Source: Lachnoanaerobaculum sp. ICM7 (GTDB lineage: Bacteria; Bacillota; Clostridia; Lachnospirales; Lachnospiraceae). From it: a DNA stretch of 64,000 nucleotides. Position 1 is the stretch's first letter; each line of letters starts with the position of its first letter. Below the pieces are notes generated by a model. It made no database searches, was not told the origin of the DNA, and worked only from the letters and a program-made list of their open reading frames with translations. The position numbers and the translations under genes are program-made. The DNA lies in assembly GCF_000287675.1 (NCBI RefSeq), contig NZ_ALJL01000016.1, forward strand, positions 124,001 through 188,000, written 5' to 3'. Below are positions 4,114 through 33,992 of the stretch, piece by piece.

Positions 4114-5271
4114 CTATGATATCTTTCTGTACTTCTGATACCTGCTTCTTGGTTTGCCCGGTACGGTCATCTCTACCAATCCCATCTCTATTGCAGGATT
4201 TAGATAATTTTTTCTAAAGGTAGGCTTATGTGTCATGCCAAGCCTAAGCATTATCTCATTTGTTGTAAGAACTTCATTCCCAAGTACATTTACAAGTCTT
4301 TTTGCAAATGTATTCTCACTTGTCTTGTTATTTGTACTCACAGCGGTATTTTTACTGTCACCTGATACGTCTATACCACCTGATACTTCTTTTCCAACCG
4401 TCATTTTGGCATTACCTGTCATACCGCTACCTAAAGAATTTTCCCGCTTTATACTGTCTCCATTTGTAAATGAAGCATCGGATTCCATCCCCCAAACCGG
4501 TATTTTCTCTTCTATCTGTGCTTTCTTTAATGTAAAAAGAATAGTCTCAAGAATAAATTCTATAAACTTATTACTTTCTCCGGGTCTTCCTATACTGTAT
4601 GTAAGCTCCTTATATTCCTGTATCCTATTATAAAGCTCGCTCTCAACAGACATACAGAAGAAAATATCCTTCCACTTACAAAGCAAAAGATCCAACCATA
4701 ATCTTGAAAGAGGGCCGTTACCTGCCGCAAAAGGCTGTAAAAGTTCAAATTCATGATATACTATTGCACATTTTATTACAGGATGCAGATTGTCTCTTTT
4801 ATACCATTCAAATATATCTCTTACAGCTCCCGGAATAAATCTTGAAGGAATTATATTACTGTCAAATATTCCGTTGCCGTTATTTTCTATCTTATCTTCT
4901 CTAAACTCAGTAGACTCTATAGTAAATCCGCTAAGTATCATTTTTTGTGCAAAGAACAAGTCATTTATTGAATACGGATTTAATTTAAATGACATATCAT
5001 AGGCCTCATATAGATTTTTTACAACTCTCATATCCTTGTGATTATCAATAACATTTTCTCCGTATATAAAACCTCTTATCTGTTCAAATGAAATATCACT
5101 TTCTTCCATTGCCAAAGAGGCATATACTTTTTTTATTATGTTTTCCTTTCGGAGTAAAGGATTCATCTTACCTGAAAGGACAACACTGACCCTTCCGACT
5201 TCTTCACTTATCTCCGTCAATAAATTTATCATTCTATCGCTCATGTTAAAAAGCGGACTATACTCTCTCAT
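4114..5271 (-). CDS. Fic-domain protein with degenerate active-site motif, C-terminal winged helix
   Basis: 385 residues. The start is taken at 5271: GGAG lies 6 nt upstream and the product MREYSPLFNMSDRM aligns with the second Fic protein of this window (MGEYKPPFHMTDRI). The inhibitory-helix-like SLAME and the Fic core are present, but the catalytic loop reads LQPFAAGNGPLSR where active AMPylating Fic enzymes have HPFxxGNGR: the catalytic His is Gln and the first Arg is Pro. The C-terminal ~60 residues look like a winged helix (NEIMLRLGMTHKPTFRKNY), as in many Fic regulators. Conventional AMP transfer is therefore doubtful; it may be inactive, changed in chemistry, or purely regulatory. It follows the P-type ATPase by 35 nt. 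Confidence 0.85.
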   Translation of the reverse strand: MREYSPLFNMSDRMINLLTEISEEVGRVSVVLSGKMNPLLRKENIIKKVYASLAMEESDISFEQIRGFIYGENVIDNHKDMRVVKNLYEAYDMSFKLNPYSINDLFFAQKMILSGFTIESTEFREDKIENNGNGIFDSNIIPSRFIPGAVRDIFEWYKRDNLHPVIKCAIVYHEFELLQPFAAGNGPLSRLWLDLLLCKWKDIFFCMSVESELYNRIQEYKELTYSIGRPGESNKFIEFILETILFTLKKAQIEEKIPVWGMESDASFTNGDSIKRENSLGSGMTGNAKMTVGKEVSGGIDVSGDSKNTAVSTNNKTSENTFAKRLVNVLGNEVLTTNEIMLRLGMTHKPTFRKNYLNPAIEMGLVEMTVPGKPRSRYQKYRKIS

Positions 5272-5318
5272 AACCAACTCCATAAAACAAAGTTTTTACT
5301 TACTACTTATACTATATC

Positions 5319-8408: not shown

Positions 8409-9179
8409 TTATATACCTATACTATTCTAATTATTATTATGGCTGCAACAATTGTTATTAATGTGACAACTGCTGTACCTATAGCTAATATCTTTCCACG
8501 CTTACAATATTTATTAGTAATATACAATGTATCAATTATATTTATTCCCGGTATAAATTGAAGTAATATATGCATAGTAAATTTAGCCAGTTTTACTTTA
8601 TGTCTATCTTTAATATAACCGATAAGGTAACATGCCGCTAACATCCCCGGTGACAATAAAGCGAAATACAACAATATTAATATCACCAAAAATATAATAA
8701 ATATTATTCCAATGAACGGTGCCATAACAATTGTTGCCGGTACCACCATACATGCAATAAATAAAGCTAATTCACCTATAGCTATAACAAAAATACATAT
8801 TGTACACAACAGAGAAATCGGAAACATAGTGTATCTATAAAAAAGCGCTCCATTGATGCAATAATTTATATCCTCCCTTTTTATGGCTCTATTCACGCTT
8901 ATGATTTGCAATATAAGCAGTATTAAAAGTAAGATAAAATATACTATATGAGGTAAAATACCAAATTCCTTTTTTTCTGTGCTGTTCAACTGAGATATAA
9001 TAACATATGCCCATCTGTAAACCACTATATTATATATTATACCCAAAATCCAAGGAAAATGCTTTTGTGTAGATTCCTCATTTATAATACAGTTTTTTTC
9101 TAATATAAAATCATTTTCCATATCACTATATCTCCTTTTAAGAATTTTTATTTCTTAACCTATTATATATAAAATAATA
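8371..9179. repeat. Tandem duplication, copy A (809-bp unit)
   Basis: The block 8371-9179 is repeated at 9180-~9990 with offset 809. Copy A runs from the 5' end of the DUF1287 gene through the first membrane-protein paralogue. At 9128-9179 it ends in a non-coding stretch that matches the last codons and stop of the third paralogue (compare 9946-9999). So the original unit spanned from inside DUF1287 to the 3' end of gene three. Confidence 0.85.
8417..9121 (-). CDS. Membrane protein of unknown function, paralogue 1 of 3
   Basis: 234 residues with about six hydrophobic spans and a short cytoplasmic N-terminus. It is nearly identical over the first ~85 residues to the gene at 9226-9939 (KHFPWILGIIYNIVVYRWAY in both) and more distantly related to 9973-10704. 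Shared landmarks are a Pro-rich central hydrophobic run and a C-terminal FIPGIN(I/L)IDTLYI followed by a last span. No enzyme motif is visible and I do not recognise the family. It arose by tandem duplication, and the second half has diverged more than the first. Confidence 0.75.
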   Translation of the reverse strand: MENDFILEKNCIINEESTQKHFPWILGIIYNIVVYRWAYVIISQLNSTEKKEFGILPHIVYFILLLILLILQIISVNRAIKREDINYCINGALFYRYTMFPISLLCTICIFVIAIGELALFIACMVVPATIVMAPFIGIIFIIFLVILILLYFALLSPGMLAACYLIGYIKDRHKVKLAKFTMHILLQFIPGINIIDTLYITNKYCKRGKILAIGTAVVTLITIVAAIIIIRIV

Positions 9180-9990
9180 CATGCAGCAATGATTCTAAAA
9201 AGTTTCTTTGATTTCATTTATATACCTATAATATTCTACTGATTGCTATTGCCGCAACGATTGTTAGAATCATCAATATTAAGGAAACTGCTATAATTAC
9301 GGTTTGTGATTTTCCTCTATCCCTGTATTTATTTGAAATATACAAAATATCAATTAAATTTACTCCGGGTATAAATCGAAAAACCTTATGCCTGTTATAT
9401 TTGTTGTTACTTAGACCATATTCATCTTTATAACAGCGGACCAGATAACCGGCCATTAACATTCCCGGTGACAATAAAACATAGTACAACAATATCATTA
9501 TCATCAAAAATATAATACATGGTACTGCAATAAACGGTACGATAAAGATCGTTGCCGGTACTACCATACATGCAATCAATATAAATATTTCGCCCACAGC
9601 TACACCAAGAATACATAGTGCACATAACAGAGAAACCGGAAACATTGCGTATCCGTAAAAAAGCGCTCCGTCAATACAATAATTTATATCATTTCTTTTT
9701 ATAGCTCTGTTCACGCTTATGATTTGCAATATAAGCGGTATTAAAAGTAAGATAAGATATACTATATGAGGTAAAATATCAAATTCCTTTTTTTCTGTGC
9801 TGTTTAACTGAGATATAATAACATATGCCCATCTGTAAACTACTATATTATATATTATGCCTAAAATCCATGGGAAATGCTTTTGTGGAGATTCCTCATT
9901 TATAATACAGTCTTTTTCTAATATAAAATCATTTTCCATATCACTATATCTCCTTTTTAGACTTTTTATTTCTTAGCCTATTATATGTAA
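9180..9990. repeat. Tandem duplication, copy B, with 5' fossil of the DUF1287 gene
   Basis: Copy B of the 809-bp unit. Its left end (9180-9230) is almost identical to 8371-8421, including the DUF1287 ATG and first codons, but no DUF1287 frame follows, so this is a dead gene start marking the duplication junction. The rest carries the second membrane-protein paralogue and the true 3' end of the third. Confidence 0.85.
9226..9939 (-). CDS. Membrane protein of unknown function, paralogue 2 of 3
   Basis: 237 residues, about six hydrophobic spans, near-identical N-terminal half to the 8417-9121 product, divergent in the C-terminal third. It has the same closing pattern (FIPGVNLIDILYISNKY plus a final span). 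It is preceded by a good RBS (AAAGGAGATAT). Unknown function; position between prfH and DUF1287 suggests co-transcription but does not reveal a role. Confidence 0.75.
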   Translation of the reverse strand: MENDFILEKDCIINEESPQKHFPWILGIIYNIVVYRWAYVIISQLNSTEKKEFDILPHIVYLILLLIPLILQIISVNRAIKRNDINYCIDGALFYGYAMFPVSLLCALCILGVAVGEIFILIACMVVPATIFIVPFIAVPCIIFLMIMILLYYVLLSPGMLMAGYLVRCYKDEYGLSNNKYNRHKVFRFIPGVNLIDILYISNKYRDRGKSQTVIIAVSLILMILTIVAAIAISRIL

Positions 9991-10704
9991 AATTATACTT
10001 GCAACTATAAGTATACCGGCAGAAACAGCTGTAATTATAGCCAATTTCTTTGCCCTATTCCAATAATGTAGCGAAATATATAATGCATCTATCAAATCCA
10101 CTACCGGAACAAACTGTAGGAGTATATGTAAAACGCAGCTACCAAGTTTCATCTCTTTTTGTTTTCTACTTATAATTACAGTGCCTACTGCCAAAACAAA
10201 TCCCGGTAAAGCGGCTATAAAAGAGATTGCCAACAATATCGGCGGCAATATAAAAGCCACCATAAGTATAAACGGCGCAAGAAAAAGCATTTGAGGTAAA
10301 ACAAGGGCTAAAATTGAAATACTCAGTCCACCCACAAATATAACAAGTGCCAGAAAAATAAAATACAATGTAGAAGGTAAAATGGTATATTTAAAAAACA
10401 AAAATCTCTTTATACAATAGTCTATATTCCCACTTCTTATCTCAGGCAATACTCTACTGATCTGAACTGTCAGAAGTGTTATAAACGCCATAAGAAATGC
10501 TATATTAAAACCTAGAAATAACCACTTGTTCAAATTAAAGTACTTCATTCCGGAAATAACAAAACCGATCCACCCATACAATACCAAAATATAAAGTATT
10601 GATATTAGCCACGGATATTTTTTCATACTTTTATTTTCACTATCTACAGCCTCTTTGCTTATACTGATATCTTCTTCTAGATTGTAATTTTTTCCATCAC
10701 CCAT
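9973..10704 (-). CDS. Membrane protein of unknown function, paralogue 3 of 3
   Basis: 243 residues, with a slightly longer acidic N-terminus than its two neighbours, about six hydrophobic spans and the shared pattern KYPWLISILYILVLYGW... LLQFVPVVDLIDALYISLHY. It is the most divergent of the three and therefore probably the older sister of the pair created by the 809-bp duplication. It starts 15 nt after the prfH stop, so it is likely in the rtcB-prfH transcript. Confidence 0.75.
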   Translation of the reverse strand: MGDGKNYNLEEDISISKEAVDSENKSMKKYPWLISILYILVLYGWIGFVISGMKYFNLNKWLFLGFNIAFLMAFITLLTVQISRVLPEIRSGNIDYCIKRFLFFKYTILPSTLYFIFLALVIFVGGLSISILALVLPQMLFLAPFILMVAFILPPILLAISFIAALPGFVLAVGTVIISRKQKEMKLGSCVLHILLQFVPVVDLIDALYISLHYWNRAKKLAIITAVSAGILIVASIILHIIG

Positions 10705-22630: not shown

Positions 22631-22640
22631 AAATATAAAT

Positions 22641-22690
22641 GACTTTCACATTTCACAAGGCTAAACTTGTATATGTGAAAGTTATTTTAA
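22641..22690 (+). terminator. Intrinsic terminator after the activase gene
   Basis: ACTTTCACAT (22642-22651) pairs with ATGTGAAAGT (22673-22682), with further inner pairing CACAAG/CTTGTA, then TATTTTAATTT. Confidence 0.75.
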
Positions 22691-22691
22691 T

Positions 22692-22815
22692 TTACCATTC
22701 AAACAATAGCCACTGATGAGTGGATGCGTCACCAAAATCCCTAAAGTAAAACAAATCACCAAAGCCTATCATCATAAAGGGAATTCTTGAATAGTCTTCA
22801 TTTTCAAGGCATCTT
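22692..22815 (-). pseudogene. C-terminal fragment of a DUF1851/GAD-like immunity-type protein
   Basis: About 40 codons on the minus strand ending in TAA at 22692-22694: RCLENEDYSRIPFMMIGFGD, then LFYFRDFGDASTHQWLLFEW. This resembles the C-terminal core of DUF1851 (Tdi1-like immunity) proteins. There is no start; the 5' part is missing and the frame abuts the Fic gene stop. The family assignment is by eye and modest. Confidence 0.4.
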
Positions 22816-23587
22816 ATACTTCTCCAACCACAACTGTCTCTTCAAGAGTTGTAAGTATAATCTCAAGTATTAATTCTACAAAAGCATAACTGTCAGCTTC
22901 TTTGTCCGACTTTCCAAGTGAATCATAATAATCTTGTTGTCTGCTTCGTATCAACTCTTCAATTGGCAGCCAATAAAACAGTTCATTCCATTTACCAAGT
23001 AATAAACTGTGCCACATCCTTCCAATACGCCCATTTCCATCCGCAAAAGGATGAATAAACTCAAATTCATAATGAAAAACAGCACTTTTAATCAGTGGGT
23101 GCATTTCTGAATTTTTATACCAGTCAAACAGTTCTTGAATTTGCATAGGTACAAATTTAGCAGGTGGAGCCATATGTACAACAACATCACCATCAAAAAT
23201 TCCTACTCCACCACTTCTAAATGTTCCATTCTCAGGAATCAACCCTTCCATCATAACCCGATGTGCTTTGAGTAAATCTTTTACTGAATTAGGATCCAGT
23301 GAAAGCATTAACTCATATGTTTCATAAGCATTCTTAACTTCACGTATTTCATTAGGATTTCCCAGAATTCTCTTTCCGTCAAGTATAGCAGTAACCTGTT
23401 CTAAAGAAAGTGAATTTTGCTCTATAGCAAGTGAAGAATGAATTGTTCTTATTCTATTTTCTTTTCTTAAATGTGGATTCAGCTTTCCATGTGAAAGTAC
23501 TGTAATTCTTCCAACCTGCTCACTAATTGCAGCTACAAGATTTGTAATTCTGTCCGTCATATGAAACGGTGGTTTATATTCTCCCAT
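22814..23587 (-). CDS. Fic-family AMPylase-type protein, canonical active site, no C-terminal winged helix
   Basis: 257 residues: inhibitory helix motif SLAIEQN near residue 53, Fic core with catalytic FIHPFADGNGRIGRMW (HxFxDGNGRxxR complete), and flap region GIFDGDVVVHMAPPA. Class II Fic proteins of this type transfer AMP to target proteins or themselves and are kept off by the inhibitory Glu. It is about 40% shorter than its relative at 4114-5271 because the C-terminal DNA-binding-like part is missing, and what follows its stop is a fragment of an unrelated gene, so 3' truncation by rearrangement is likely. Confidence 0.88.
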   Translation of the reverse strand: MGEYKPPFHMTDRITNLVAAISEQVGRITVLSHGKLNPHLRKENRIRTIHSSLAIEQNSLSLEQVTAILDGKRILGNPNEIREVKNAYETYELMLSLDPNSVKDLLKAHRVMMEGLIPENGTFRSGGVGIFDGDVVVHMAPPAKFVPMQIQELFDWYKNSEMHPLIKSAVFHYEFEFIHPFADGNGRIGRMWHSLLLGKWNELFYWLPIEELIRSRQQDYYDSLGKSDKEADSYAFVELILEIILTTLEETVVVGEV

Positions 23588-23630
23588 TTTGTGTTTCCTT
23601 TTATTCTCAAAATATCAATAATATTTCTAA

Positions 23631-23665
23631 ATTTATCCTGCTAAAACAAAATGCTCCGCCTTCAA
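23631..23665. repeat. 35-bp exact copy of the 3' end of the DUF3841 gene
   Basis: Positions 23631-23665 are identical to 24921-24955, which is the last ~11 codons and stop of the DUF3841 gene. Here they are not attached to any frame. The pair are direct repeats flanking the thioredoxin and esterase genes, indicating that this segment was inserted or duplicated next to a pre-existing DUF3841 gene. Confidence 0.85.
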
Positions 23666-23676
23666 CTTCTGCATCC

Positions 23677-23994
23677 TTATTTCCTCAATTCGAGATAACG
23701 CTCAATATCTCCAAGCAGTGCATCCAGACTGAAATAACCGCTCTCTCGTGCAACAAGTTGACCGTCCATATATACCAGCACAGTCGGTGCGGAGAAAATG
23801 CCCATCTGTGAACTGATTTCCATGTTTTTTTCTATATCTACATATCGGGCTTCTACCTCTTTATGCTCACTCATCCACTGTTCCAGCTTATACCGAATGG
23901 CATGGCAGGGGCCACATGTATCCGAACCAAACTGGAGGATAAGCACCGGTATTTTCTTTATTAAATCATTAATATCTTCTCTAAGATCATTCAT
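23677..23994 (-). CDS. Thioredoxin-family protein
   Basis: 105 residues with the redox motif in FGSDTCGPCHAIR, the cis-Pro in SAPTVLVYMDG and the closing Gly (RESGYFSLDALL); standard single-domain thioredoxin length. It reduces disulfides in the cytosol; the specific partner is unknown. The CGPC active site is the usual one for thioredoxins. No signal peptide. Gap 23995-24203 upstream holds no gene I can see. Confidence 0.88.
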   Translation of the reverse strand: MNDLREDINDLIKKIPVLILQFGSDTCGPCHAIRYKLEQWMSEHKEVEARYVDIEKNMEISSQMGIFSAPTVLVYMDGQLVARESGYFSLDALLGDIERYLELRK

Positions 23995-24200
23995 AGCTCA
24001 AATTCCTTTCTTATTAATCATATCAGTCAGAGAACATACTGTATTATACCGGACTTTTCCCATGACCGATTAAACTTCCTATCGCCTACTCAAACATTAT
24101 CAGTTACATTCGTTTAGAAAATCCATATGTTTTGTTTAGACTTCCGAATCCCACTTTTTCTCTTTCATTTTTGAATAATTAAAATCCCTTTATTTTTTTT

Positions 24201-24724
24201 AAACTATAAAATTGCCTTTATTCCCCTTGCACTGCGAATAACTGTATCTGTGAAATGATTACCCGGATTTAATTCAAATATTACCTCACACCCAAGGTTC
24301 TTAAAATATTCTGAAAGCTCTCTTGTATTATACTCTACAGTTTTTAATACAGGATTGCGTGTATTTGCCTCTTTATCCCCCAGAGAAAAATAAATTTTAT
24401 CAGGCAACCTCTTATAATCATTACTTTTACAATATTCCATAAAGTCATAAAACCAAAGTGAGCCCGACACACTTGCCACTCTGTCAAATACATCAGTTTT
24501 ATACATAGCATAAACAGCAAAAAGACCTGCAAGTGAATATCCTGTTATTCCTGTAAATCCCGGTTCTCCATCTATCATCTCCTTTGCCTTTGGCAAAATC
24601 TCATCTATAAGCAATCTCAGATACTCATCTGCACCGCCGCTAAAAGATTTTTCTTTAGAATAGATTGAAGGCATATACCATGGTGACATATCATGATTCC
24701 AATCAATATTTCCAACAACAAGTA
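24201..24724. repeat. 524-bp direct repeat, copy 1 (intact esterase)
   Basis: Same-strand repeat of 33386-33909, offset 9185, no indels and about 30 mismatches by eye. Copy 1 lies inside a complete esterase gene; copy 2 is a 5'-truncated one. The pair bracket DUF3841, the DUF262 protein, the GHKL operon and the recombinase remnant. Confidence 0.9.
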
Positions 24725-24890
24725 AATTAAAAGAAGTACAGCCCATGTTATGCAATGCCTGATATACATCTTCGCCATCACCTTCAAAAGTATTAAAAAC
24801 AATCAAAGGAGCATTTGTATCAGGGGACTTGTATAGGGTGAATTCTTTATCTTTTATATTGAATTTTTCTTTATTATTATTTGTTATCAC
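24204..24890 (-). CDS. Alpha/beta-hydrolase-fold esterase (PF00756-like)
   Basis: 228 residues, no signal peptide. Nucleophile Ser in GYSLAGLFAVYA, catalytic His in NPGNHFTD near the C-terminus; the fold and spacing resemble Fes/IroE/esterase-D-type enzymes but the substrate is not evident. RBS AGGAGGTATAGGTG lies upstream. A near-identical second copy, lacking the first ~55 codons, is at 33389-33908. Confidence 0.8.
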   Translation of the reverse strand: MITNNNKEKFNIKDKEFTLYKSPDTNAPLIVFNTFEGDGEDVYQALHNMGCTSFNLLVVGNIDWNHDMSPWYMPSIYSKEKSFSGGADEYLRLLIDEILPKAKEMIDGEPGFTGITGYSLAGLFAVYAMYKTDVFDRVASVSGSLWFYDFMEYCKSNDYKRLPDKIYFSLGDKEANTRNPVLKTVEYNTRELSEYFKNLGCEVIFELNPGNHFTDTVIRSARGIKAIL

Positions 24891-24922
24891 CTATACCTCC
24901 TACCACAGGCCTTAAATTATAT

Positions 24923-25459
24923 TTATCCTGCTAAAACAAAATGCTCCGCCTTCAAAACCCATTCCTTTTTTAACTCCCAAAATGTTGCTTGAGTAGATTT
25001 CGGTACATACCAACAGTCGGTTACTTCATCTATACAAAAAACATTTTCCCAGCTTTTCAATATTTCATCTTCACTTGGATCTTCAATATCATCTTTTTCA
25101 TATAACGGTAAATATCCGTCATTTAATATAACATGCCACATATCAAAGTCTGACAGTAAAACCATATTGTCAGGTATATCTATAGTTAGCAAAACTACAG
25201 GTGTTCCCTTCTTACCTCCATATCTATGAATCCTCATATCAGGACGTTTTCTTACACCTTCCCATTGATACCAAGCCCATACAGGGTATATTACATCATT
25301 TGGCGGCATTCCGATACGTTTTTTCATCTGTTCGGCAATCCATTCATAATAATAACGTAATCCACCATCAAACGATAAATATTTTTCATTTGCTATAAGT
25401 CTACCTGTCTCAAGTAAAATATCATAAGCAGCCTTATGTTGAATAGCCCATAAAAGCAT
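24923..25459 (-). CDS. DUF3841 protein
   Basis: 178 residues, cytosolic, beginning MLLWAIQHKAAYDILLETG and containing the conserved YPVWAWYQW, VVLLTIDIPDNMVLLSDFDMWH and a Trp-rich C-terminus, consistent with DUF3841. These are small accessory proteins of unknown function often near mobile or toxin-related genes. The gene lies inside the segment bounded by the 524-bp direct repeat, and its 3' end is repeated at 23631-23665. Confidence 0.72.
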   Translation of the reverse strand: MLLWAIQHKAAYDILLETGRLIANEKYLSFDGGLRYYYEWIAEQMKKRIGMPPNDVIYPVWAWYQWEGVRKRPDMRIHRYGGKKGTPVVLLTIDIPDNMVLLSDFDMWHVILNDGYLPLYEKDDIEDPSEDEILKSWENVFCIDEVTDCWYVPKSTQATFWELKKEWVLKAEHFVLAG

Positions 25460-25633
25460 TTTAACTCCATAAAATCAATTAATAATATTACCAATTATAC
25501 ATTATCCGTCTTATAAATTTATACTTTAACTTCACTGTACATAATAATAGCATTTTCTCACATATAATTAAATCTCTATCTTAAAATTTCATGCTTCATC
25601 CAAATGAACAGTATTATAGTATGTTATTTAATA

Positions 25634-25662
25634 TTGACTTTTATATCATAAATACATAGAAT
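25634..25662 (+). promoter_or_regulatory. Candidate promoter of the DUF262/DUF1524 gene
   Basis: TTGACT (25634-25639), 17-nt spacer, TAGAAT (25657-25662), giving a ~150-nt leader. A second TATAAT at 25761-25766 lacks a good -35. Otherwise the 359-bp gap 25460-25818 is AT-rich with no coding signal. Confidence 0.5.
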
Positions 25663-25818
25663 CATATTTATACAGTTCATATAGGCACTTTATCTAATGC
25701 TGTTTTGTGATTTGAACCTTAATTTAGAAATTTTTACATGCAATTCAAAATATTAATGTTTATAATCTGAACTCAAATAATAAGTGCTTTATTGTATGAA
25801 ATATAAGGAGAAACGGTA

Positions 25819-27444
25819 ATGAAAACTATAACAGCAAAGCCTGAAGATATCAGAACAATATTTTCTAGGGAATATCAGATTCCAATGTTCCAAAGAGAAT
25901 ATTCATGGGAACAGGAACAATGCGAGACTCTTTGGGATGATCTAATTGATTTTCATAATGAAAACGATAAGAAAGATAAATATTTTTTAGGAAATATTGT
26001 AGTACATCCAATTGATGAAAATGAGAAGTTTTCAGTTATAGATGGGCAGCAAAGACTGACAACACTTCTTTTACTTATCAGAGCACTTTTTGATAATGCT
26101 GGTACAGTAAAGGCATTGGAGGAATGTTTAAAGACAAAAGACAAGCTAAGTTCAGAGCTCACAAATAATATAAGATTAAATTCAGATGTTATTGAAAATG
26201 ATAAGAAAAATCTTGAACAAATTATCTTACAAGGCCATTGCGATGATAAAAATTCAAGACTTTATATAAATTATGATATGTTCAAGAATAAAATTTCAGA
26301 TTGGAAACAAGGAAAAACTTCTGATGAATTAAATAAACTTATTTTGACATTTTTAGATAATGTAGTATTATTACCGATATTATGTGAAACTGAAGATGAT
26401 GCTTTAAATATTTTTGAGACTATAAATAACAGAGGTCTATCATTAAGCGATGCAGATATATTTAAGTCAAAGCTTTATGCCGGAATTGATAGTTCTAAAC
26501 GTGGGGAGTTTATTGACGAATGGAATGACTTAGATGATCAAGAAGACCTGTTTCGTATTTTAATGTACATCTGTAGGGCTCAAGAAAATGATATTTCTAG
26601 GGAAAAGGGACTAAGGTCTTATTTTTCGTCTAAAACAGGTAGACTACAGAATACAGGCAATGTAATGGCTTCTCTAAAAAAAATAAATGCAATAATAGAT
26701 ACAAAAACAGGTATCTATAATGATTCATTATGGAATATTTTGGAAAGTTACCCTAATCAATATTGGAGATATCCTTTATATGTATTCTTGCATAAATATC
26801 TAATATGGAAAAAAGACGGTGAGTTATTCTTACCTGAAGAACATTATGAAGAATATAAGAAGCTGGTAATGTTAACGACAGCATATTATTTTATAAAGGG
26901 TGTTGTATATAATTCTGTTAATACTGTAAAAGATACAACATTTAAGGTATGTGCAAAAATAGAACATTGTGATAATTACCTATCTGAGTATATGGAAAAT
27001 ATGTGTAATGATTTAAAAATATTCTATAATAAACTTGAAAGTGCAGATTTGGGTAGATGTAAAAGAGGAATTATCTTACTAAGTGGATTTTTAAATGAAT
27101 CACAGAGTGTTGAAGATTTTTATGACTTAATTTTAAATTCTAATATAGAAATAGAGCATATCTTACCAAGAAAGTGGTCTGATAATAATGACTGGGATGA
27201 ACAGAAAGCAAAAGAAGTAATGGAAACTTTAGGCAACCTTGCACCGTTTGAGAAAAAACTAAATATAAGTGCAAGTAATGAATTTTTTAAAAAGAAAAAG
27301 AAAGCCTACAAAGAGTCAAAGTTTGCGGATATCAAAGATTTATCAAAGCTTGATAAATGGGACTACAATGAAGTAAAGCTGAGAGAAAAAAATATTATTA
27401 GTAGAATAAAATCTTTTATAAAAGAAGTGTCTGATTTTATATAA
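25819..27444 (+). CDS. DUF262/DUF1524 protein (GmrSD-like nuclease candidate)
   Basis: 541 residues. N-terminal DUF262 (ParB/sulfiredoxin-like) with YQIPMFQREYSW and the NTP-binding FSVIDGQQRLTTLLLL. C-terminal DUF1524 HNH-type nuclease with IEHILPRKWS followed by an Asn-rich GNLAPFEKKLN. The same two domains make up GmrS and GmrD, a type IV restriction enzyme that cuts glucosylated-hydroxymethylcytosine phage DNA; single-chain fusions are common in defence islands. ATG with AAGGAG 9 nt upstream, own terminator. AT-rich relative to its flanks, consistent with transfer. Confidence 0.87.
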   Translation: MKTITAKPEDIRTIFSREYQIPMFQREYSWEQEQCETLWDDLIDFHNENDKKDKYFLGNIVVHPIDENEKFSVIDGQQRLTTLLLLIRALFDNAGTVKALEECLKTKDKLSSELTNNIRLNSDVIENDKKNLEQIILQGHCDDKNSRLYINYDMFKNKISDWKQGKTSDELNKLILTFLDNVVLLPILCETEDDALNIFETINNRGLSLSDADIFKSKLYAGIDSSKRGEFIDEWNDLDDQEDLFRILMYICRAQENDISREKGLRSYFSSKTGRLQNTGNVMASLKKINAIIDTKTGIYNDSLWNILESYPNQYWRYPLYVFLHKYLIWKKDGELFLPEEHYEEYKKLVMLTTAYYFIKGVVYNSVNTVKDTTFKVCAKIEHCDNYLSEYMENMCNDLKIFYNKLESADLGRCKRGIILLSGFLNESQSVEDFYDLILNSNIEIEHILPRKWSDNNDWDEQKAKEVMETLGNLAPFEKKLNISASNEFFKKKKKAYKESKFADIKDLSKLDKWDYNEVKLREKNIISRIKSFIKEVSDFI

Positions 27445-27450
27445 ATTTTT

Positions 27451-27486
27451 CCTATACCCTAACTATTATTAGGGTATAGGTTTTTC
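27451..27486 (+). terminator. Intrinsic terminator of the DUF262 gene
   Basis: CCTATACCCTAA pairs with TTAGGGTATAGG (12-bp perfect stem, 6-nt loop), then TTTTT. Confidence 0.93.
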
Positions 27487-27966
27487 ATTGATTTCTAATA
27501 TGCTATAAAGATCTATTTCAAGTTGATCGTCTTCAAATTGCTCTTTCGATATCACTCTCTTATAGGCTCCTTATTAAAATACTTTTTTAATTGTTGACAA
27601 AATTCTATTGCCACATATCCTAAGAATGCCCCCAAAATAATAGTACTATTATTTTGTCAAGTAAAAAAGTAGTTCTACCTCCACAACCACCGATTTCCAG
27701 TAGTCAATACCATTATCAATCGCTCTAAAATAATAGAGTAAACCAATTTTACAAACTTCTGTATTTTTTATCTAAGCCATTTACTCTCAAGACTTTTCTA
27801 CACTTTTTCTTATTACTTTCTTGTCATCAATCCCCCTCCAAATGAAAATACAACTCCCTATAAATTTCAGATTTTGCCTTAGTATTTAAGGACATATTCA
27901 TGAACCCTTTTAAGATTGGTCTAAGCTATCATTAAAAAGTTTAAACATTAGGTAGTTTTTATTTTC
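27487..27966 (-). other. Non-coding stretch with short decayed minus-strand frames
   Basis: No full gene is present. On the minus strand a frame reads NNSTIILGAFLGYVAIEFCQ followed by QLKKYFNKEPIRE and a TGA, whose GTGA overlap opens a 28-codon frame (VISKEQFEDDQLEIDLYSIL...) ending near the DUF262 terminator. Both lack proper starts, so they are probably remnants of a lost gene pair. The 27660-27966 part shows nothing I can interpret. Confidence 0.3.
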
Positions 27967-28470
27967 TTATTTTTTAAGTTTAGGCAGATTAATACCCTTT
28001 ACATTTACTCCTAGTATTACTGCTCCCAATAAAAGTGCACCTGCAGTTAACTGAGTTCCGTATTTGACAAGATTATATATAAACTGTTTATTTTCAGTAT
28101 CTTTTGCAGATATTCTATCTGCTACCTCAAGCATTTGCTCAATTATACGACTTCTTTCCAAAGGCGTAACTTCCTCTTTCTTTAAAACTTCGCCCAAGTC
28201 ATCAAGGATTTTTTTGTATGCCATGATTGCATCCTTCTGACTATCTTTATTATTTTCCAGAGCCTTATCACACACATTCTTAAACTGTTCCAACAATTTT
28301 CTGCTAGACTCGGCATATGCCGGAAACTGATTGATGATACTTATTGCAACATCTTTATCCATATTAGGTATTAAAGAAGCAAACTCAATGATTTTTTCTT
28401 TTGATAAATTTCTAAATGAATCAATTTGCAGAGCATCTTTTACTTGTTGCTCAGTTAGTATTTTAGACAT
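27967..28470 (-). CDS. Helical protein with C-terminal membrane anchor, fifth gene of GHKL operon
   Basis: 167 residues, mostly charged helical sequence (coiled-coil-like between ~60 and 130: LEQFKNVCDKALENNKD, ILDDLGEVLKKEEV), then one hydrophobic segment (GTQLTAGALLLGAVILGV, ~142-160) and a basic tail, the layout of a tail-anchored protein. No enzyme motif; I do not recognise it. It starts 18 nt after the preceding gene with a GGGGG-type RBS. In defence operons, a membrane-anchored last gene is often the effector, but that is inference only. Confidence 0.7.
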   Translation of the reverse strand: MSKILTEQQVKDALQIDSFRNLSKEKIIEFASLIPNMDKDVAISIINQFPAYAESSRKLLEQFKNVCDKALENNKDSQKDAIMAYKKILDDLGEVLKKEEVTPLERSRIIEQMLEVADRISAKDTENKQFIYNLVKYGTQLTAGALLLGAVILGVNVKGINLPKLKK

Positions 28471-28488
28471 TTTGTATTCTTACCCCCT

Positions 28489-29556
28489 TTACTTTTGAAT
28501 CGCTTCGATAACATAAGTCTTTCCCTGGAAGGAAACCTCATCGCCAATTCGGCAACCTAAAAGACTTTTTGCCAATTGAGGAATCTTTGTGGAGTTCTGA
28601 AGATAATTTACCAGTATCTTTTTTGGTTCATCAGTTTCCTTAATACGAACATTCACTTTTTGACCAATAACTATATACTCATCTTCAGCGCTGTCTTCCG
28701 TACTTTCATCTTCTGGCACTTCATTGCCATCAAGATCCATATCTTCGTACTCTTCTGGTTCATCCTCGATCTCTACACCTTGCTCATCACCTTGTAAGAT
28801 GCCATAAATATTATCAATGAGCATGTCTGCAATCTCGTCCTCATCGAGACAATCGAGAACTACTCCGCCACCTACTGCGTTCAAAAATTGCAATGATGGT
28901 CTTATATGCTCCTTGAGTGAAAGCTGTGTATTTTCCTCTTTAAAGTTCTTGAACGCCTTAACAATGCCATTCAAAATAATCGGATTCGCAGAAAAATTAT
29001 TACTGTAAAAAATGTCTGAAATCTTACTACTAATATCGTTGCTGCCTATAATATCCAGTTTTTCAAATGGATTTGTTACATTACTTGGATCATAAGTATT
29101 TCTTCCAACCCACCAACACTTGGCTACTGAATTTCTAAATAATCCGGCTCTTGTACCACCTGAAAAGAAGAATCTCGATTTTATATTTGATACAGCCTCT
29201 TTCTGCGTTTTAGGTGATTTTGCATTATAATCCCATCTTTTTCTAAGGTAACCATAATAAACCGAATGACATAGTCCCGCCCACAACCTTTCGTCACAAG
29301 CCTGCGACTCTGTCAAAAATGACAAGTGCTGATAAATAATCTTGCAGTTTGCAAACTCAACTTCACCTTTTGACAAGTCAGAATCAATTGGAGCCAACTG
29401 GAAATCTTGTATCTCCTTAAATTCGATAAACGGATCTCCTCCACAGACTTTCCAAAGCCATTTATTATCCTTTTCCGTGAAATACATGTTGTAAACAATA
29501 TCAAGATTGGATTTAAGGATGTCCAATGCTTCTTTTTTCATAAAATATAATTTCAT
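28489..29556 (-). CDS. DUF6339-like protein, fourth gene of GHKL operon
   Basis: 355 residues. The N-terminal ~200 residues carry FIEFKEIQDF, FLTESQACDERLWAGLCHSV, YYGYLRKRW, RFFFSGGTRAGLFRNSVAK and WWVGRNTYDP, a pattern I associate with DUF6339 (from memory). The next part is helical, followed by a very acidic linker (~255-295) and a small C-terminal beta domain (QKVNVRIKE...CRIGDEVSFQGKTYVIEAI) reminiscent of GreA/TOPRIM-tail SH3-like modules. The ATG directly follows the previous stop (TAAATG), implying coupling. Enzymatic role unknown. Confidence 0.72.
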   Translation of the reverse strand: MKLYFMKKEALDILKSNLDIVYNMYFTEKDNKWLWKVCGGDPFIEFKEIQDFQLAPIDSDLSKGEVEFANCKIIYQHLSFLTESQACDERLWAGLCHSVYYGYLRKRWDYNAKSPKTQKEAVSNIKSRFFFSGGTRAGLFRNSVAKCWWVGRNTYDPSNVTNPFEKLDIIGSNDISSKISDIFYSNNFSANPIILNGIVKAFKNFKEENTQLSLKEHIRPSLQFLNAVGGGVVLDCLDEDEIADMLIDNIYGILQGDEQGVEIEDEPEEYEDMDLDGNEVPEDESTEDSAEDEYIVIGQKVNVRIKETDEPKKILVNYLQNSTKIPQLAKSLLGCRIGDEVSFQGKTYVIEAIQK

Positions 29557-30441
29557 TTAAGCATCCTCCTCTTCCTCACCAGCTTCGAACAGATCTGCGA
29601 ATTTTCTCAATGCAGCATTCAACGGTAATTCCATTGCTTCTTGTGCTAACTGCACAGAAGTCTTATCAGAATATAACAGTTCATTTTCCAAGTCTACTCC
29701 ACGTTTCTCATAAGCCTTTGATAAAGAAATATACCAATTTCTACCTGCGTAGTTGTCAATTCCATTCTCTTGTTTTAACTCTTCAAAAACGTATACCAAT
29801 GCAGGGAATACCATCATAGAGTTCAATATCGGTTGGAATTCTTCTTTAGCACAGAAACGAGAATAAATCTCATATTCTTCCAATCCTAAGCCGATACCAA
29901 TTTGCGGAGTCGAAAGTTCCACTTCCATTGGCTTTGGTTCAGTTGTTAATCTCTTATACACCTTAAAAATAGAACTTGTGCTGTTAAATTCCTCGTAATT
30001 CTTTACAATCTCAATTGCTGGTATATTTTTATACGCAAGAATACTTCCTTTCGACAGTTCAAATGACAGCCCCTGGTAATCATCGTTCCAATTAGAATTC
30101 ACAAAATGATTAACATATTTTTTTATCACTATTAAAACTATAATTTCTATTCTTCCGTTGATTCTTCCAATCGGAATTTCTTTGCTTACATGATTGGAAA
30201 TATCATGAATCGTAGTTCTATATGATGTGTTTGCACATTCAATATGAATCACATATTCAGCATTACCTTCCAGAATCATTTTATGAAGTTCTTTGTTATC
30301 CATTTCTATATCGAAATCAAACAACAGATTATTAACACCATTCATTTTATACTGCACATCTGCATCAAAGACAGAATCCATGTAATCATCTCTTTCTTCA
30401 CTTAGAACCGGATATGTATATAATCTTTTAGTTATGTTCAT
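29557..30441 (-). CDS. Protein of unknown function, third gene of GHKL operon
   Basis: 294 residues from ATG 30441 (GGAGGT 8 nt upstream; the ATG at 30447 is too close to it). It overlaps the end of the GHKL ATPase gene. The N-terminal half is predicted beta-rich (HKMILEGNAEYVIHIECA, SNHVSKEIPIGRINGRIEII) and the C-terminal half helical with FPALVYVFEELKQEN and an acidic C-terminus. The opening RLYTYPVLSEERDDYM and this two-part layout do not match any family I know. Tight coupling with the ATPase suggests a subunit of the same complex. Confidence 0.7.
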   Translation of the reverse strand: MNITKRLYTYPVLSEERDDYMDSVFDADVQYKMNGVNNLLFDFDIEMDNKELHKMILEGNAEYVIHIECANTSYRTTIHDISNHVSKEIPIGRINGRIEIIVLIVIKKYVNHFVNSNWNDDYQGLSFELSKGSILAYKNIPAIEIVKNYEEFNSTSSIFKVYKRLTTEPKPMEVELSTPQIGIGLGLEEYEIYSRFCAKEEFQPILNSMMVFPALVYVFEELKQENGIDNYAGRNWYISLSKAYEKRGVDLENELLYSDKTSVQLAQEAMELPLNAALRKFADLFEAGEEEEDA

Positions 30442-32341
30442 ATACATTTACCTCCATCGCATAATCCCGGTTATCCAACAAAGCAATTTCAAACTGGACT
30501 TTTTCATTTCCCTTCATACTGGAAAAACTTACACCTTCAGAACTCTTTATTATTCCTGTGCATCCCATCAACTCAGATGCAGAATCGATTGCAAGTCGAT
30601 TCGATTTACCATTTTCACCGACTGTAACAATCTCAACATGTCCTGTACGAATATCGCGTGGCAAAATAAAGGAAACTCTATAGGTGTTTCTCGATGTCTT
30701 AATAACTCTGACATTTTTAAGTTCCTGATTTATATCTCCACCATACCTTTTATGTACGGTATCATGTCCACCTGCAGTAACTCTGCCTTTATGAGTATCC
30801 TTTTCGCTTCGATGCCTAGTACCGCCTAAATTACGTGTTGTTGGATCACCACCATCAATTCCAATGGTTCCTTCTGTATCCATCTTCTTCGACTTTCCAT
30901 TCCCTTCACTTCCGTAAAACAACCCTTTTAGCTTCGTTTTTGATGTTCGAGATTGAATTGTAATGGATCCAATTGTATCCTGGAGACTTTCCTTATTGCT
31001 GTCATCTCCTTGCTGATCAGTCTTATCTGATTCCTTCTGAAGAACACCTGCCAAACCTGCGACTTCAATTTCATCATCACTAGAATGCTCACCCAACGTT
31101 TGAACACATTCTCTTATCCAATCTTTTAACTCATTGTTATATTCTTTTGCTAGGGGCACGTTAGTTGAGTGTCTGCTTGGCAACCATTTATCATGTGCCG
31201 GAGTTTCCATTTCTCTAAAGAACTCATTAAGCTCTTTACCTTCCATTTCAAGCACACCGGAAAATGAAATAATTCTCGACACATTACCTAATGCAAATAA
31301 TTTCATTCCCGAAGATCTCGTAATCAGAATTTTTCTATTCAACTTCTCCGAAGGATCGACTAAAACGCTAAGTTTTAGAGTCCCCATCCCATAAAAGTCT
31401 CTTTTGAATACTTTTGTTTCAGGTCGAACAAGCACTTGGTAGTACCAATATGCGTTTTTTATTTTTGCATTATATGTGCTGAGATAACTTGCAAGCGTAG
31501 AACTATTGATTGCTTTATTGGCAACCGTTACACTTAATAAATTTTTGTGAATAGACATTAAGAAGTTTTCCAGAACCTCGTTAATTACATCGATATTCCA
31601 TTCATATCCCGCATTAAATCCATACACAAAAACATCTGTACCAATCTCAGATCTCTGATATAGTTTTTCCAACTCACTGATAGAATCAACAGGTAAGTTA
31701 CCTTCCGGATTTCCATAGTAACCAATTCCGGTTGTCATTGTATTCATACTATTGCTTAAATTCTCCGGAAAAGATATAAATCGTGACATTCCCTGTGCAG
31801 CAGTCTCTTGATCTTCATTCAGAGTTCTATAAAAGACCAGTCTATAATCCGAATTTGTAAATGGTGCATTCTTTCCTATCCCAAAGGCTCCAGCTTTATC
31901 ACCAGTTTTTGTCGCACCACCATCAAGTTTTGTCAATGCATTCCAGCCTTCGTCACTATCCTCATATGGATGACTAAGTCCAGTTGTGTTAAAATCGCTA
32001 ATTCGCAAAACAACTGTAGTAGGCATCTTAATTGCATTTAATGCCTTTTTCAGTACCTTAATAGTCTTTTCGCTATTCTTTTTCGACCAATAATTATAAG
32101 CTTTCTGAATTTTAGAAACATACTGCTCATATCCAGGAATATCAGAAGAAGGAATTCTATACTGTTCAAAATCAACTTTAATGGTTGCATTACTGCCTTC
32201 CACCGTTGCATCTAATGAGTTCTGACAAATTTCTCTTGCCAATGACTGAATCTCTGTTCCTGTAAATGTTTCAATACCTGCATCTGACACTCCACGCACT
32301 TGTCCAAACCCATTATGCGGAAATTTCCACTCTATAGTCAT
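30428..32341 (-). CDS. GHKL (MORC/MutL-like) ATPase, core of a five-gene operon
   Basis: 637 residues, cytosolic. The Bergerat ATP-binding fold is clear: N-box EICQNSLDA (E37, N41, D44), G1 box ISDFNTTGL (D116, G121) and lid/G2 box GAFGIGKNAPF (G151-K157), followed by an S5-like transducer region with a conserved Lys/Arg (KILITRSSGMKL). A low-complexity, charged linker (~430-560) precedes a final beta domain (YRVSFILPRDIRTGHVEIV). This arrangement resembles bacterial MORC/MutL-type ATPases found in restriction-like and Mza operons, clamp-like DNA-binding machines. No nuclease or helicase is fused. It starts 5 nt after the 74-residue gene. Confidence 0.85.
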   Translation of the reverse strand: MTIEWKFPHNGFGQVRGVSDAGIETFTGTEIQSLAREICQNSLDATVEGSNATIKVDFEQYRIPSSDIPGYEQYVSKIQKAYNYWSKKNSEKTIKVLKKALNAIKMPTTVVLRISDFNTTGLSHPYEDSDEGWNALTKLDGGATKTGDKAGAFGIGKNAPFTNSDYRLVFYRTLNEDQETAAQGMSRFISFPENLSNSMNTMTTGIGYYGNPEGNLPVDSISELEKLYQRSEIGTDVFVYGFNAGYEWNIDVINEVLENFLMSIHKNLLSVTVANKAINSSTLASYLSTYNAKIKNAYWYYQVLVRPETKVFKRDFYGMGTLKLSVLVDPSEKLNRKILITRSSGMKLFALGNVSRIISFSGVLEMEGKELNEFFREMETPAHDKWLPSRHSTNVPLAKEYNNELKDWIRECVQTLGEHSSDDEIEVAGLAGVLQKESDKTDQQGDDSNKESLQDTIGSITIQSRTSKTKLKGLFYGSEGNGKSKKMDTEGTIGIDGGDPTTRNLGGTRHRSEKDTHKGRVTAGGHDTVHKRYGGDINQELKNVRVIKTSRNTYRVSFILPRDIRTGHVEIVTVGENGKSNRLAIDSASELMGCTGIIKSSEGVSFSSMKGNEKVQFEIALLDNRDYAMEVNVYEHN

Positions 32342-32346
32342 CTAAA

Positions 32347-32571
32347 TCACCTCAAAGTAAATTTATTTTCCTTATTGCTAATATCTTGATACTTACTTTT
32401 GCAAGCTTTTAATTCTGATTCTAATGCAGAGAAAATCTTTTTTACGTCTTCATCTGTGTATTCGTATGTTGCTGTATTAGAGCAGTTACTTAAAAGTCGA
32501 ATCATATCGATGATTTTATTTGTTCTAGACTCAGCAACTCTAATAAATTTATCATGTTTTGATTCAGCCAT
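32347..32571 (-). CDS. Small helical protein, first gene of GHKL operon
   Basis: 74 residues, ATG with AGGAG and 6-nt spacing, promoter at 32602-32630. Sequence MAESKHDKFIRVAESRTNKI, then IDMIRLLSNCSN...YEYTDEDVKKIFSALESEL, all helical and charged. I have a general memory of similar 70-residue proteins in Bacillota beside defence or mobile genes, with no function assigned. May be a regulator or DNA-binding cofactor of the ATPase that follows 5 nt downstream. Confidence 0.72.
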   Translation of the reverse strand: MAESKHDKFIRVAESRTNKIIDMIRLLSNCSNTATYEYTDEDVKKIFSALESELKACKSKYQDISNKENKFTLR

Positions 32572-32601
32572 ATTTTTCTCCTGATCTTATATTTTTATTT
32601 T

Positions 32602-32630
32602 ATTTTACATATTTTTACTCTATATGTCAA
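32602..32630 (-). promoter_or_regulatory. Strong SigA-type promoter of the GHKL operon
   Basis: Minus-strand TTGACA (32625-32630), 17-nt spacer, TAAAAT (32602-32607), 31 nt before the first ATG. No other promoter is evident inside the operon. Confidence 0.85.
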
Positions 32631-32688
32631 TATATCGTATTTATTTCAATATTATTTTTTATATATTATAATTATTTGCAAATTAAAA

Positions 32689-32710
32689 CGCCCGGACTTT
32701 CCTCTGGACG
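32689..32710 (-). other. RNase P RNA core fragment, probable attachment-site relic
   Basis: The minus strand reads CGTCCAGAGGAAAGTCCGGG then CG. The 15-mer GAGGAAAGTCCGGGC is the highly conserved 5' block of bacterial type-A RNase P RNA (P4 region). No other part of rnpB is present. It lies 18 bp past the stop codon of a serine recombinase remnant, exactly where an attachment site is expected, so it is read as an att core from integration into rnpB. Confidence 0.55.
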
Positions 32711-32728
32711 CTACTGATTCTTTAAATT

Positions 32729-33316
32729 TTACCTTAAAACATTGGTTTCAATCTTTGCTTTAAAATAGACCATAAGCTTATCATAATAGATCTGTATCTG
32801 CTCGATATATTTTCTAACTAGCTTATCATCATACTCTATTATCTGAGTATCATTCATTTTAACATAGGCTGCAAGTTCATTGATTCGTTGTCTAGTGCCT
32901 TCTCTGAGCATGCTCTACCAAAAGTAACTGCTTGTGCTGTCTAAGATCTCCCCTTTCATCAGAGCATTTAGAATAGTCTTTTTTCCATATGCCAAATCCA
33001 AGAGTTTCTTCTGTTTTTCTGCAATAGTATTATTAATTTTCTCTATTTCAACAGAATTATCTTGTCTGATAACTTCCAGAATATTCTCTTCCAGGATATC
33101 TATCATATCTTGGAAGTTTTCCAAAACAGCATTCATGGCATCGATAACTGCATGTTTAAGTTCTTCCTCCTGCACTGTCGGTGCAGAACAATATGATGCT
33201 CCCCTTTTCTCCCTTGTGTGGCATCTCCATACAATTGATTTCTTTCCTTGGTTATTCCAAGCTATTCGTATGTAAATATTCCCACATTTCATGCAGGTAC
33301 AAATACTTGAGCGTAC
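32729..33316 (-). pseudogene. C-terminal remnant of a large serine recombinase
   Basis: About 195 codons remain: a zinc beta-ribbon (CTCMKCGNIYIR...VWRCHTREKRG...YCSAP) followed by the long coiled coil typical of large serine integrases (VEIEKINNTIAEKQKKLLDL...LREGTRQRINEL...KLMVYFKAK). A TAG at 32915-32917 interrupts the frame in place, without a shift. The N-terminal catalytic domain with the nucleophilic serine is absent; upstream sequence is blocked by a stop at about 33315 and then replaced by unrelated DNA. It cannot be active. It indicates that the adjacent cluster arrived by site-specific integration. Confidence 0.85.
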
Positions 33317-33317
33317 A

Positions 33318-33341
33318 TACTAATATGCAATAATATTAGTA
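33318..33341. repeat. Inverted repeat at the 5' break of the recombinase remnant
   Basis: TACTAATAT-GCAATA-ATATTAGTA, perfect 9-bp arms. It sits between the recombinase break and the truncated esterase copy, at a rearrangement junction. It may be a stem or protein site; no T run follows. Confidence 0.5.
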
Positions 33342-33385
33342 TAATTTAATACAACTCTTGAATAATTTCTTTGTTCTTTTAATAA

Positions 33386-33909
33386 AAACTATAAAATTGC
33401 CTTTATTCCCTTTGCACTGCGAGGAACTGTATCTGTGAAATGATTACCATTGTTTAATTCAAATATTACCTCACTCCCAAGTTTCTTAAAATATTCTGAA
33501 AGCTCTCTAGTATTATCATCTACAGTTTTTAATATAGGATTGCGTGTATTTGCCTCTTTATCCCCCAGAGAAAAATAGATTTTATCCGGTAACTTTCTAC
33601 AATTATTCCTTTTACAATATTCCATAAAGTCATAAAACCAAAGTGAGCCCGACATACTTGCCACTCTGTCAAATGCATCAGTTTTATACATAGCATAAAC
33701 GGCAAAAAGACCTGCAAGTGAATATCCTGCTATTCCTGTAAATCCCGGTTCTCCCTCTATCATCTCCTTTGCCTTTGGCAAAATCTCATCTATAAGCAAT
33801 CTCAGATACTCATCTGCACCGCCGCTAAAAGATTTTTCTTTAGAATAGATTGAAGGCATATACCATGGTGACATATCATGGTTCCAATCAATATTTCCAA
33901 CAACAAGTA
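33386..33909. repeat. 524-bp direct repeat, copy 2
   Basis: Second copy of 24201-24724, same strand, no indels. The homology stops sharply at 33909, which is where the esterase gene is broken. Confidence 0.9.
33389..33908 (-). pseudogene. 5'-truncated copy of the esterase gene
   Basis: Encodes the C-terminal ~173 residues of the esterase at 24204-24890, including the catalytic GYSLAGLFAVYA and NNGNHFTD His, but the first ~55 codons, the start and RBS are missing. An internal ATG at 33874 opens 161 codons without a convincing RBS. Most substitutions keep the frame, so divergence happened partly under selection or recently. Probably non-functional. Confidence 0.8.
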
Positions 33910-33930
33910 TTTCTTTTATCCAAATTTAAT

Positions 33931-33959
33931 TTGACAATTCATTTTCATTGTGCTAGAAC
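33931..33959 (+). promoter_or_regulatory. Promoter of the hydrolase-mprF pair
   Basis: TTGACA (33931-33936), 17-nt spacer, TAGAAC (33954-33959), starting 22 bp after the repeat ends and 34 nt upstream of the ATG. Confidence 0.75.
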
Positions 33960-33992
33960 TTGATACAAATAAAATATTGAAAGTGTGATGAT

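Follow-up and report, generated by a model that had tools for sequence, protein, structure and literature searches.

The window analysed here, a stretch of 64,000 nucleotides from Lachnoanaerobaculum sp. ICM7 (contig NZ_ALJL01000016.1, positions 124,001 to 188,000) that belongs to a draft assembly of 2.78 Mb, carries on its minus strand five closely spaced genes built around a GHKL-type ATPase of 637 residues, which we call A. A and the two proteins encoded directly downstream of it, B and C, match the three models of the PADLOC candidate system PDC-M33 over nearly their full length, in the same order, adjacent to each other and on the same strand. Taken together, the data suggest that this small, mobile, ATPase-centred gene set probably provides immunity to invading DNA; none of its products was recognised as a DNA-cutting enzyme. 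The initial annotation of this DNA had proposed an undescribed defence candidate without a match to any system that could be named. The second part does not hold, since PADLOC names A, B and C, whereas the system is uncharacterised as far as literature searches show: no paper naming PDC-M33 or DUF6339 was found in the full-text literature, which covers neither preprints nor most subscription papers. What stands of the overall interpretation is a listed candidate that occurs here as a variant with two additional genes, orf0 and E167, and a long C.

The ATPase A and its partners B and C

The genes for A (positions 30428–32341; PADLOC E=3e-202), B (29557–30447, or up to 30441 from the second methionine; E=7e-97) and C (28489–29556; E=2e-189) are preceded by orf0 (32347–32571), which encodes a helical protein of 74 residues belonging to a conserved family, and followed by the gene for E167 (27967–28470), a helical protein of 167 residues with a C-terminal hydrophobic stretch. 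According to the coordinates, orf0 and A are separated by 5 nt, A and B overlap by 14 nt, B and C adjoin with 0 nt between them and C and E167 are 18 nt apart, so that all five minus-strand open reading frames (ORFs) described earlier, with overlaps or gaps of at most 18 nt, are present. B can be read as an ORF of 296 residues or of 294 residues from the second methionine, and this Met3 is conserved in 93% of 75 aligned sequences. In comparison to PDC-M33, the window adds orf0, E167 and the extension on C. The five proteins gave no nuclease, helicase or methyltransferase matches, in agreement with the earlier statement that nuclease and helicase domains are missing from the operon.

Conservation in A was analysed in an alignment of 76 proteins that excludes a duplicate of the A of the window and, from genome G142, an ATPase of the Mza type. 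Residues E37, Q40, D44, D116, G121, G151, G154, G156, R342, E379, H383 and W386 are invariant in all 76 proteins, and N41 is retained in 75 of them. Our reading of the pLDDT (predicted local distance difference test) values and the DSSP assignment of an AlphaFold2 model, which was built on an alignment of 62 sequences and reached a pLDDT of 84.2, divides A into a GHKL domain (residues ~1–200), an S5-like domain (~230–420), a disordered linker (423–484) and a C-terminal beta domain (485–637). The S5-like part contains an ExxxHxxW motif at residues 379–386 that is present in 76/76 aligned proteins. When compared to the PDB with Foldseek, the model matched 19 chains at E<=0.001, with TRAP1, GRP94, Hsp90, MORC3, MORC2, topoisomerase VI, topoisomerase IV and MLH1 as matched proteins. 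The Pfam GHKL models did not match the A of the window, HATPase_c_3 was found in one of 62 aligned members (E=0.022), and a search of the PDB by sequence returned 0 matches. We assign A to the GHKL ATPase superfamily by its N, G1 and G2 motifs and its modelled fold; the three Bergerat-fold boxes of the initial annotation are borne out by motifs that are near-invariant in the 76 proteins and by the agreeing AlphaFold2/Foldseek fold. From its intact residues, A is predicted to hydrolyse ATP and to dimerise.

By motif and domain description, A would be a paraMORC2-type protein. In the accessible part of the work of Iyer, Abhiman and Aravind (2008, PMC2292703), paraMORC2 combines a GHKL domain with an S5 domain in whose C-terminal part ExxxH is conserved, and is spread sporadically, mainly in Gram-positives and cyanobacteria, and the paraMORCs as a group have restriction neighbourhoods in common. 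A shares the GHKL and S5 domains, the ExxxH motif (76/76 as ExxxHxxW), the sporadic spread and many Gram-positive hosts, and its relatives in some clades likewise have a C5-methyltransferase and Vsr as neighbours. It differs in that the same part of the 2008 description does not include B and C, and in that many relatives of A, that of the window included, have no restriction methyltransferase alongside. Eukaryotic MORC ATPases also have the GHKL-S5 fold in common with A (MORC3, 5ix2, E=3.6e-8; MORC2, 9cdj, E=1.2e-6), but carry in S5 the MORC-specific motif GhXhhpXXRhl, which occurs in 0/76 aligned A proteins, and we therefore rejected A as a true MORC.

Two further systems invite comparison. 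The ATPase of a Mza-like operon in G142 (for Mza, genes mzaA-E, see PMC9523054) is homologous to A (hhalign E=4.8e-11; hmmsearch 1.7e-14 among 618 ORFs), yet none of the Mza models of PADLOC matches A at E<=1. A homologue of B was not found in this operon, and an apparent homologue of C was not upheld by hmmsearch, which gave a chance-level C match elsewhere (E=0.0086). VcSduA, a Shedu protein tested against phages, contains a GHKL ATPase domain as in the fold of A, but carries a nuclease domain in the same protein, whereas none is recognised in A (PMC12137116).

B is modelled with a pLDDT of 91.8 as a beta-rich N-terminal part followed by C-terminal helices. The model has 0 matches in the PDB at E<=0.001 and no enzyme fold was recognised; a single viral structure was matched at 5.8e-4 with a TM-score of 0.21, and the 5 matches of a PDB search by sequence were all at chance level. 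Pfam assigns a significant family to neither A nor B. The DUF6339 domain noted earlier in C was recovered (Pfam E=2.8e-50) and is present in 60/60 C proteins scanned. C of the window has 355 residues, consisting of DUF6339, an acidic linker and an extension. More than 40 residues follow DUF6339 in 23 of 68 aligned C proteins, with no such extension in the other 45, and 13 of the 23 show a loose GreA-like pattern. The Pfam model of the GreA_GreB C-terminal domain matched 3/60 C proteins (best 4.2e-4), with C of the window, at 0.073, below the cut-off, and HTH_6 matched 2/60. Residues ~250–355 of C of the window are thus possibly a GreA/GreB-C-like extension. In the same-genus genome G400, C is split into two ORFs of 238 and 111 residues (positions 7515–8582 of L133), which parts DUF6339 from the extension. 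The conserved residues of B (H68, E70, C71, T74, R77) and of C (D88, E89, R90, W92, W148, W149) form no recognised nuclease motif, so that we dropped the idea of a hidden nuclease in C and, with the lacking PDB match at E<=0.001, in B.

Distribution, exchange at one site and neighbouring genes

The scan of species genomes contributed 80 relatives, kept from 389. Unless another total is given, locus counts refer to 78 non-redundant loci, many of which are cut by contig ends and all of which rest on mechanical gene calls. B is present in 76 and C in 73 of these loci, both being near-constant. Losses of B or C occur largely at contig ends (affected loci L026, L059, L077, L080, L089 and L097); the A of L026 continues into a fused ORF. 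Of the 398 phylum genomes scanned, 9 contain a match to the A model, which in G142 is weak and belongs to the Mza-like operon; the other 8 are exactly the 8 genomes with C. The closest named record is that of Lachnoanaerobaculum sp. OBRC5-5, with an A that is 99% identical to that of the window, and A of Ruminococcus sp. FMBCY1 is 87% identical. Relatives were also found in 23 plasmid records from 7 genera, 2 of them being short matches, and on 6 contigs of IMG/VR that encode A. B and C are present in 4 of these 6 contigs and a C5-methyltransferase in 3; the locus stops after A in L158, and in L159 the module adjoins two recombinase-like and several phage-like genes, as judged by eye.

The module of the window lies in a variable island of about 11.4 kb (22631–33992), delimited by comparison with same-genus genomes. 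When this one site was compared in six Lachnoanaerobaculum genomes, its content differed. The window and G400 carry PDC-M33 together with a GmrSD gene, G400 with some extra genes, while G402 harbors a BREX set (BrxA, BrxB, BrxC, PglX and PglZ according to PADLOC). G398 and G401 lack an island, their flanking genes lying side by side, and in G399 the contig ends at the site. A is absent from G398, G399, G401 and G402 and hence present in one of the five other genomes of the genus. Since PDC-M33, BREX or nothing is found at one site, the site behaves as a defence-gene hotspot, and no other single argument speaks as strongly for a role of the window copy in defence. A direct repeat of 300 nt with 92% identity (24201–24500 and 33386–33685) marks the edges of the island. 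An esterase-like gene lies near these edges in two directly repeated copies (24204–24890 and 33389–33874), one of them truncated, and the BREX set of G402 (2529–17840 of L134) is accompanied by genes for a protein of 724 residues with weak restriction-enzyme matches and for one of 348 residues without a match.

Restriction genes recur next to the module. On the 7 of 23 plasmid records that were viewed, one per genus, restriction genes of type I or type II adjoin it, and on some of them Vsr, Shedu or AbiG is found as well. A C5-methyltransferase lies within 6 kb in 22 of the 51 non-redundant loci whose flanks extend for at least 3 kb to either side, or in 17/44 when plasmid loci are left out. 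The expectation, estimated from the 125/398 genomes that carry such a gene, is 0.004 per 16 kb and 0.19 in 51 loci. It uses the matches counted in 124 of these 125 genomes, some of the matches being gene pieces, assumes 2.7 Mb per genome and takes a single phylum as background; 7 of the 51 loci, by contrast, lie on plasmids, in part from other phyla. The 102 first neighbours comprise 11 C5-methyltransferases, 5 N6-methylases, 6 queA and 5 tgt genes. Loci with the methyltransferase have orf0 in 18/22 and a long C in 2/22 cases, and those without it have orf0 in 5/28 and a long C in 16/28. The window resembles the latter type in its long C, yet carries orf0. None of the independent-pair and sign tests on the A tree, which cannot reach significance, was significant. 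A C5-methyltransferase as a required partner was rejected because the trait is bound to clades on this tree.

Additional genes and surroundings of the operon

R16, N29, Y36 and Y38 are invariant in 30 aligned sequences of the orf0 family, and the orf0 protein of the window matches no PADLOC model at E<=1. We discarded orf0 as an invariant component of the system because only 29/78 non-redundant loci have it (28/74 among loci with room upstream). Five of the 398 genomes have it, three of them with PDC-M33 and two in which A was not found. The gene also immediately precedes GHKL-type ATPases of three other kinds, among which BLAST detects no similarity. The first kind has 615–621 residues and matches HATPase_c_3 weakly (E=0.0012 for the Dinoroseobacter protein); it is followed in Dinoroseobacter by Gabija-type GajA (PADLOC) and a UvrD-like helicase gene and in Agrobacterium, by annotation only, by ATP-binding and UvrD-like genes, with neither type of gene in Rhizobium. 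The second (800 residues, Ensifer) and the third (840 residues, G282) show GHKL motifs by eye, the former without Pfam or PADLOC and the latter without PADLOC support. Alignment of A with single GHKL proteins of L101 and L100 by hhalign gave no useful result. From these sequence associations we infer that orf0 may be a portable partner of GHKL ATPases. Two observations count against this: L103 (Vescimonas) has orf0 with no such ATPase seen, and orf0-like proteins exist in Synechococcus phages. Of 9 matched phage records, 8 are from Synechococcus phages (e.g. 4980–5258 of L155), and the small proteins that they encode could conceivably mimic the bacterial partner as decoys or regulate it. On alphaproteobacterial plasmids, orf0 and another GHKL ATPase precede GajA-like and UvrD-like genes (9983–16724 of L101, 10016–15288 of L102), possibly as an extended Gabija-type system. 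In L042, L043, L060 and L070, the usual place of orf0 just upstream of A is taken by an ORF of 73–77 residues from a different family, which we take to be YdbC/PC4-like.

E167 ends in a hydrophobic stretch that we read as a putative membrane anchor. A search of 163 loci found homologues in the system of the same-genus relative, a single genome represented by both L021 and L133 (98% identical), 58 nt upstream of A in L158 (52%) and 3.3 kb downstream of C in L027 (26%). On plasmids of Streptomyces and Arthrobacter, homologues lie apart from annotated PDC-M33 genes in the stretches viewed. A profile search detects E167 in 2/99 loci, duplicates included, and E167 is an optional accessory.

The strong promoter assigned earlier to the operon (TTGACA-17-TAAAAT, minus strand, 32602–32630, 11/12 consensus positions) is indeed the best-scoring of 31 sites between 27 and 34 kb and is well placed, but the number of sites is no higher than the 30.5 expected in shuffled sequence; its score and its position ~30 nt before orf0 make it a candidate promoter. 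Where the E167 gene ends, the surrounding 100 nt form no stable hairpin that could serve as a terminator. The neighbouring DUF262/DUF1524 gene (25819–27444, plus strand) encodes a GmrSD-type, HEC-06-like modification-dependent nuclease (Pfam E=1.9e-37 and 1.5e-17; PADLOC HEC-06 E=6e-57) and shares the island with the module, but lies on the opposite strand and outside its operon. The recombinase relic nearby was likewise recovered as two ORFs of a serine recombinase (32729–33292, minus strand), with Zn_ribbon_recom (PF13408) at E=4e-10 in 32915–33292 and the part 32729–32911 assigned by eye. Elsewhere, the window encodes two Fic-type proteins of 389 and 257 residues that are related by eye (4114–5283 and 22814–23587), the second of which (Fic/DOC E=3e-22) lies at the edge of the variable island, and three tandem genes for membrane proteins of 234–243 residues, also related by eye (8417–10704).

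Explanations for the module and their weight

We consider a defence role of the module quite likely. Given such a role, A would form a dimer that clamps DNA under the control of ATP, B and C would be its adaptors in a predicted A–B–C complex and orf0 a possible partner of the ATPase, and invading DNA would be trapped or handed to a nuclease encoded elsewhere; for this clamp mechanism we see about an even chance. The explanation as a whole is supported by the PADLOC matches, the motifs and fold of the ATPase, the co-occurrence of A to C, the patchy spread, the exchange at one site, the methyltransferase neighbours and the homology to Mza, and weighed against three rivals it receives a probability of roughly 0.5. 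Several points weigh against it. Defence activity is a prediction for every copy of the module. PDCs are presented as putative candidates obtained via guilt-by-embedding, most without experimental validation (PMC12988326), and two other PDCs gave no defence when tested (PMC12409345). The Foldseek TM-scores of A are low (0.18–0.36 over the query for the 19 best chains), the probable reason being that neither the linker nor the C-terminal beta domain has a counterpart, and on the viral contig L160 A is present but B and C are not. On a tree of 77 A proteins, 50 of them scored, 4 changes suffice to account for the methyltransferase trait, and the link is therefore a property of certain clades; the genome of the window itself has no C5-methyltransferase at E<=0.001. 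Several relatives are found among housekeeping genes, e.g. queA and tgt in Selenomonadales-type loci and, as judged by eye, in L148, L150 and L152. In nine Selenomonadales-type loci (L028–L031, L033–L035, L038 and L039) a tgt-like gene lies just downstream (TGT E=2e-158 in L030), and from the frequency of queA and tgt among the first neighbours the module seems to sit between the two genes there.

The module could instead be an auxiliary of restriction-modification that works only with a resident methyltransferase and endonuclease or with GmrSD, for instance by permitting cleavage in the way that MutL licenses MutH. Iyer et al. predict such a role for paraMORCs (PMC2292703), and it would fit the C5-methyltransferases near 22/51 loci, the Vsr, NgoFVII-like, AlwI, MutH/Sau3AI and EcoRII neighbours of relatives and the GmrSD neighbour in the window, the same-genus L021, L041 and L099. 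We nevertheless hold it to be unlikely given the missing methyltransferase in the genome of the window, its absence within 6 kb in 28/50 scored loci, the binding of the trait to clades and its presence in only 2 of the 8 systems of the phylum sample (stretches of 14–16 kb). A maintenance module for chromosomes or plasmids, serving DNA condensation or repair and merely travelling on mobile elements, would account for the solitary copies between housekeeping genes, the recurring queA/tgt position and the MORC- and topoisomerase-like character of A; the patchy presence (8/398 genomes), the exchange with BREX and the restriction, Abi and Shedu neighbours met repeatedly on the viewed plasmids make this improbable. 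Marginally less probable still is abortive infection, in which A–B–C would sense the phage and the putatively membrane-anchored E167 or another product would kill or halt the cell. The hydrophobic stretch of E167 and its recurrence, adjacent to the system in L158 and in its vicinity in L027, speak for this, but E167 was detected in just 2/99 loci and also exists without the system, and A, B and C match no toxin family.

Least probable of all, in our view, is a nuclease-free, transcription-coupled silencing, in which a MORC-like clamp would trap actively transcribed foreign DNA in parallel to HUSH-MORC2 and would be recruited via RNA-polymerase-type domains, either the GreA-C-like extension of C or a separate sigma-r4/alpha-CTD-like protein. 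The latter is encoded in other lineages directly after a short C. A long C and the separate protein never occur together in 64 scored loci (0/10 versus 22/54, Fisher p=0.012), a test that omits L098 with its long C and a weak partial match to the separate protein (E=3e-16 at a cut-off of 1e-20). The pattern comprises 2–3 independent pairs and is explained equally well by shared ancestry.

A putative database candidate thereby gains an identity, as a GHKL ATPase of paraMORC2 type accompanied by two constant, putative adaptors, is linked to Mza and has a small partner, orf0, that is seemingly common to several GHKL ATPases. Should the module prove active with no nuclease involved, it would reveal what the relatives of MORC in bacteria do by themselves, and the ancestral function of MORC would become testable in a simple host.

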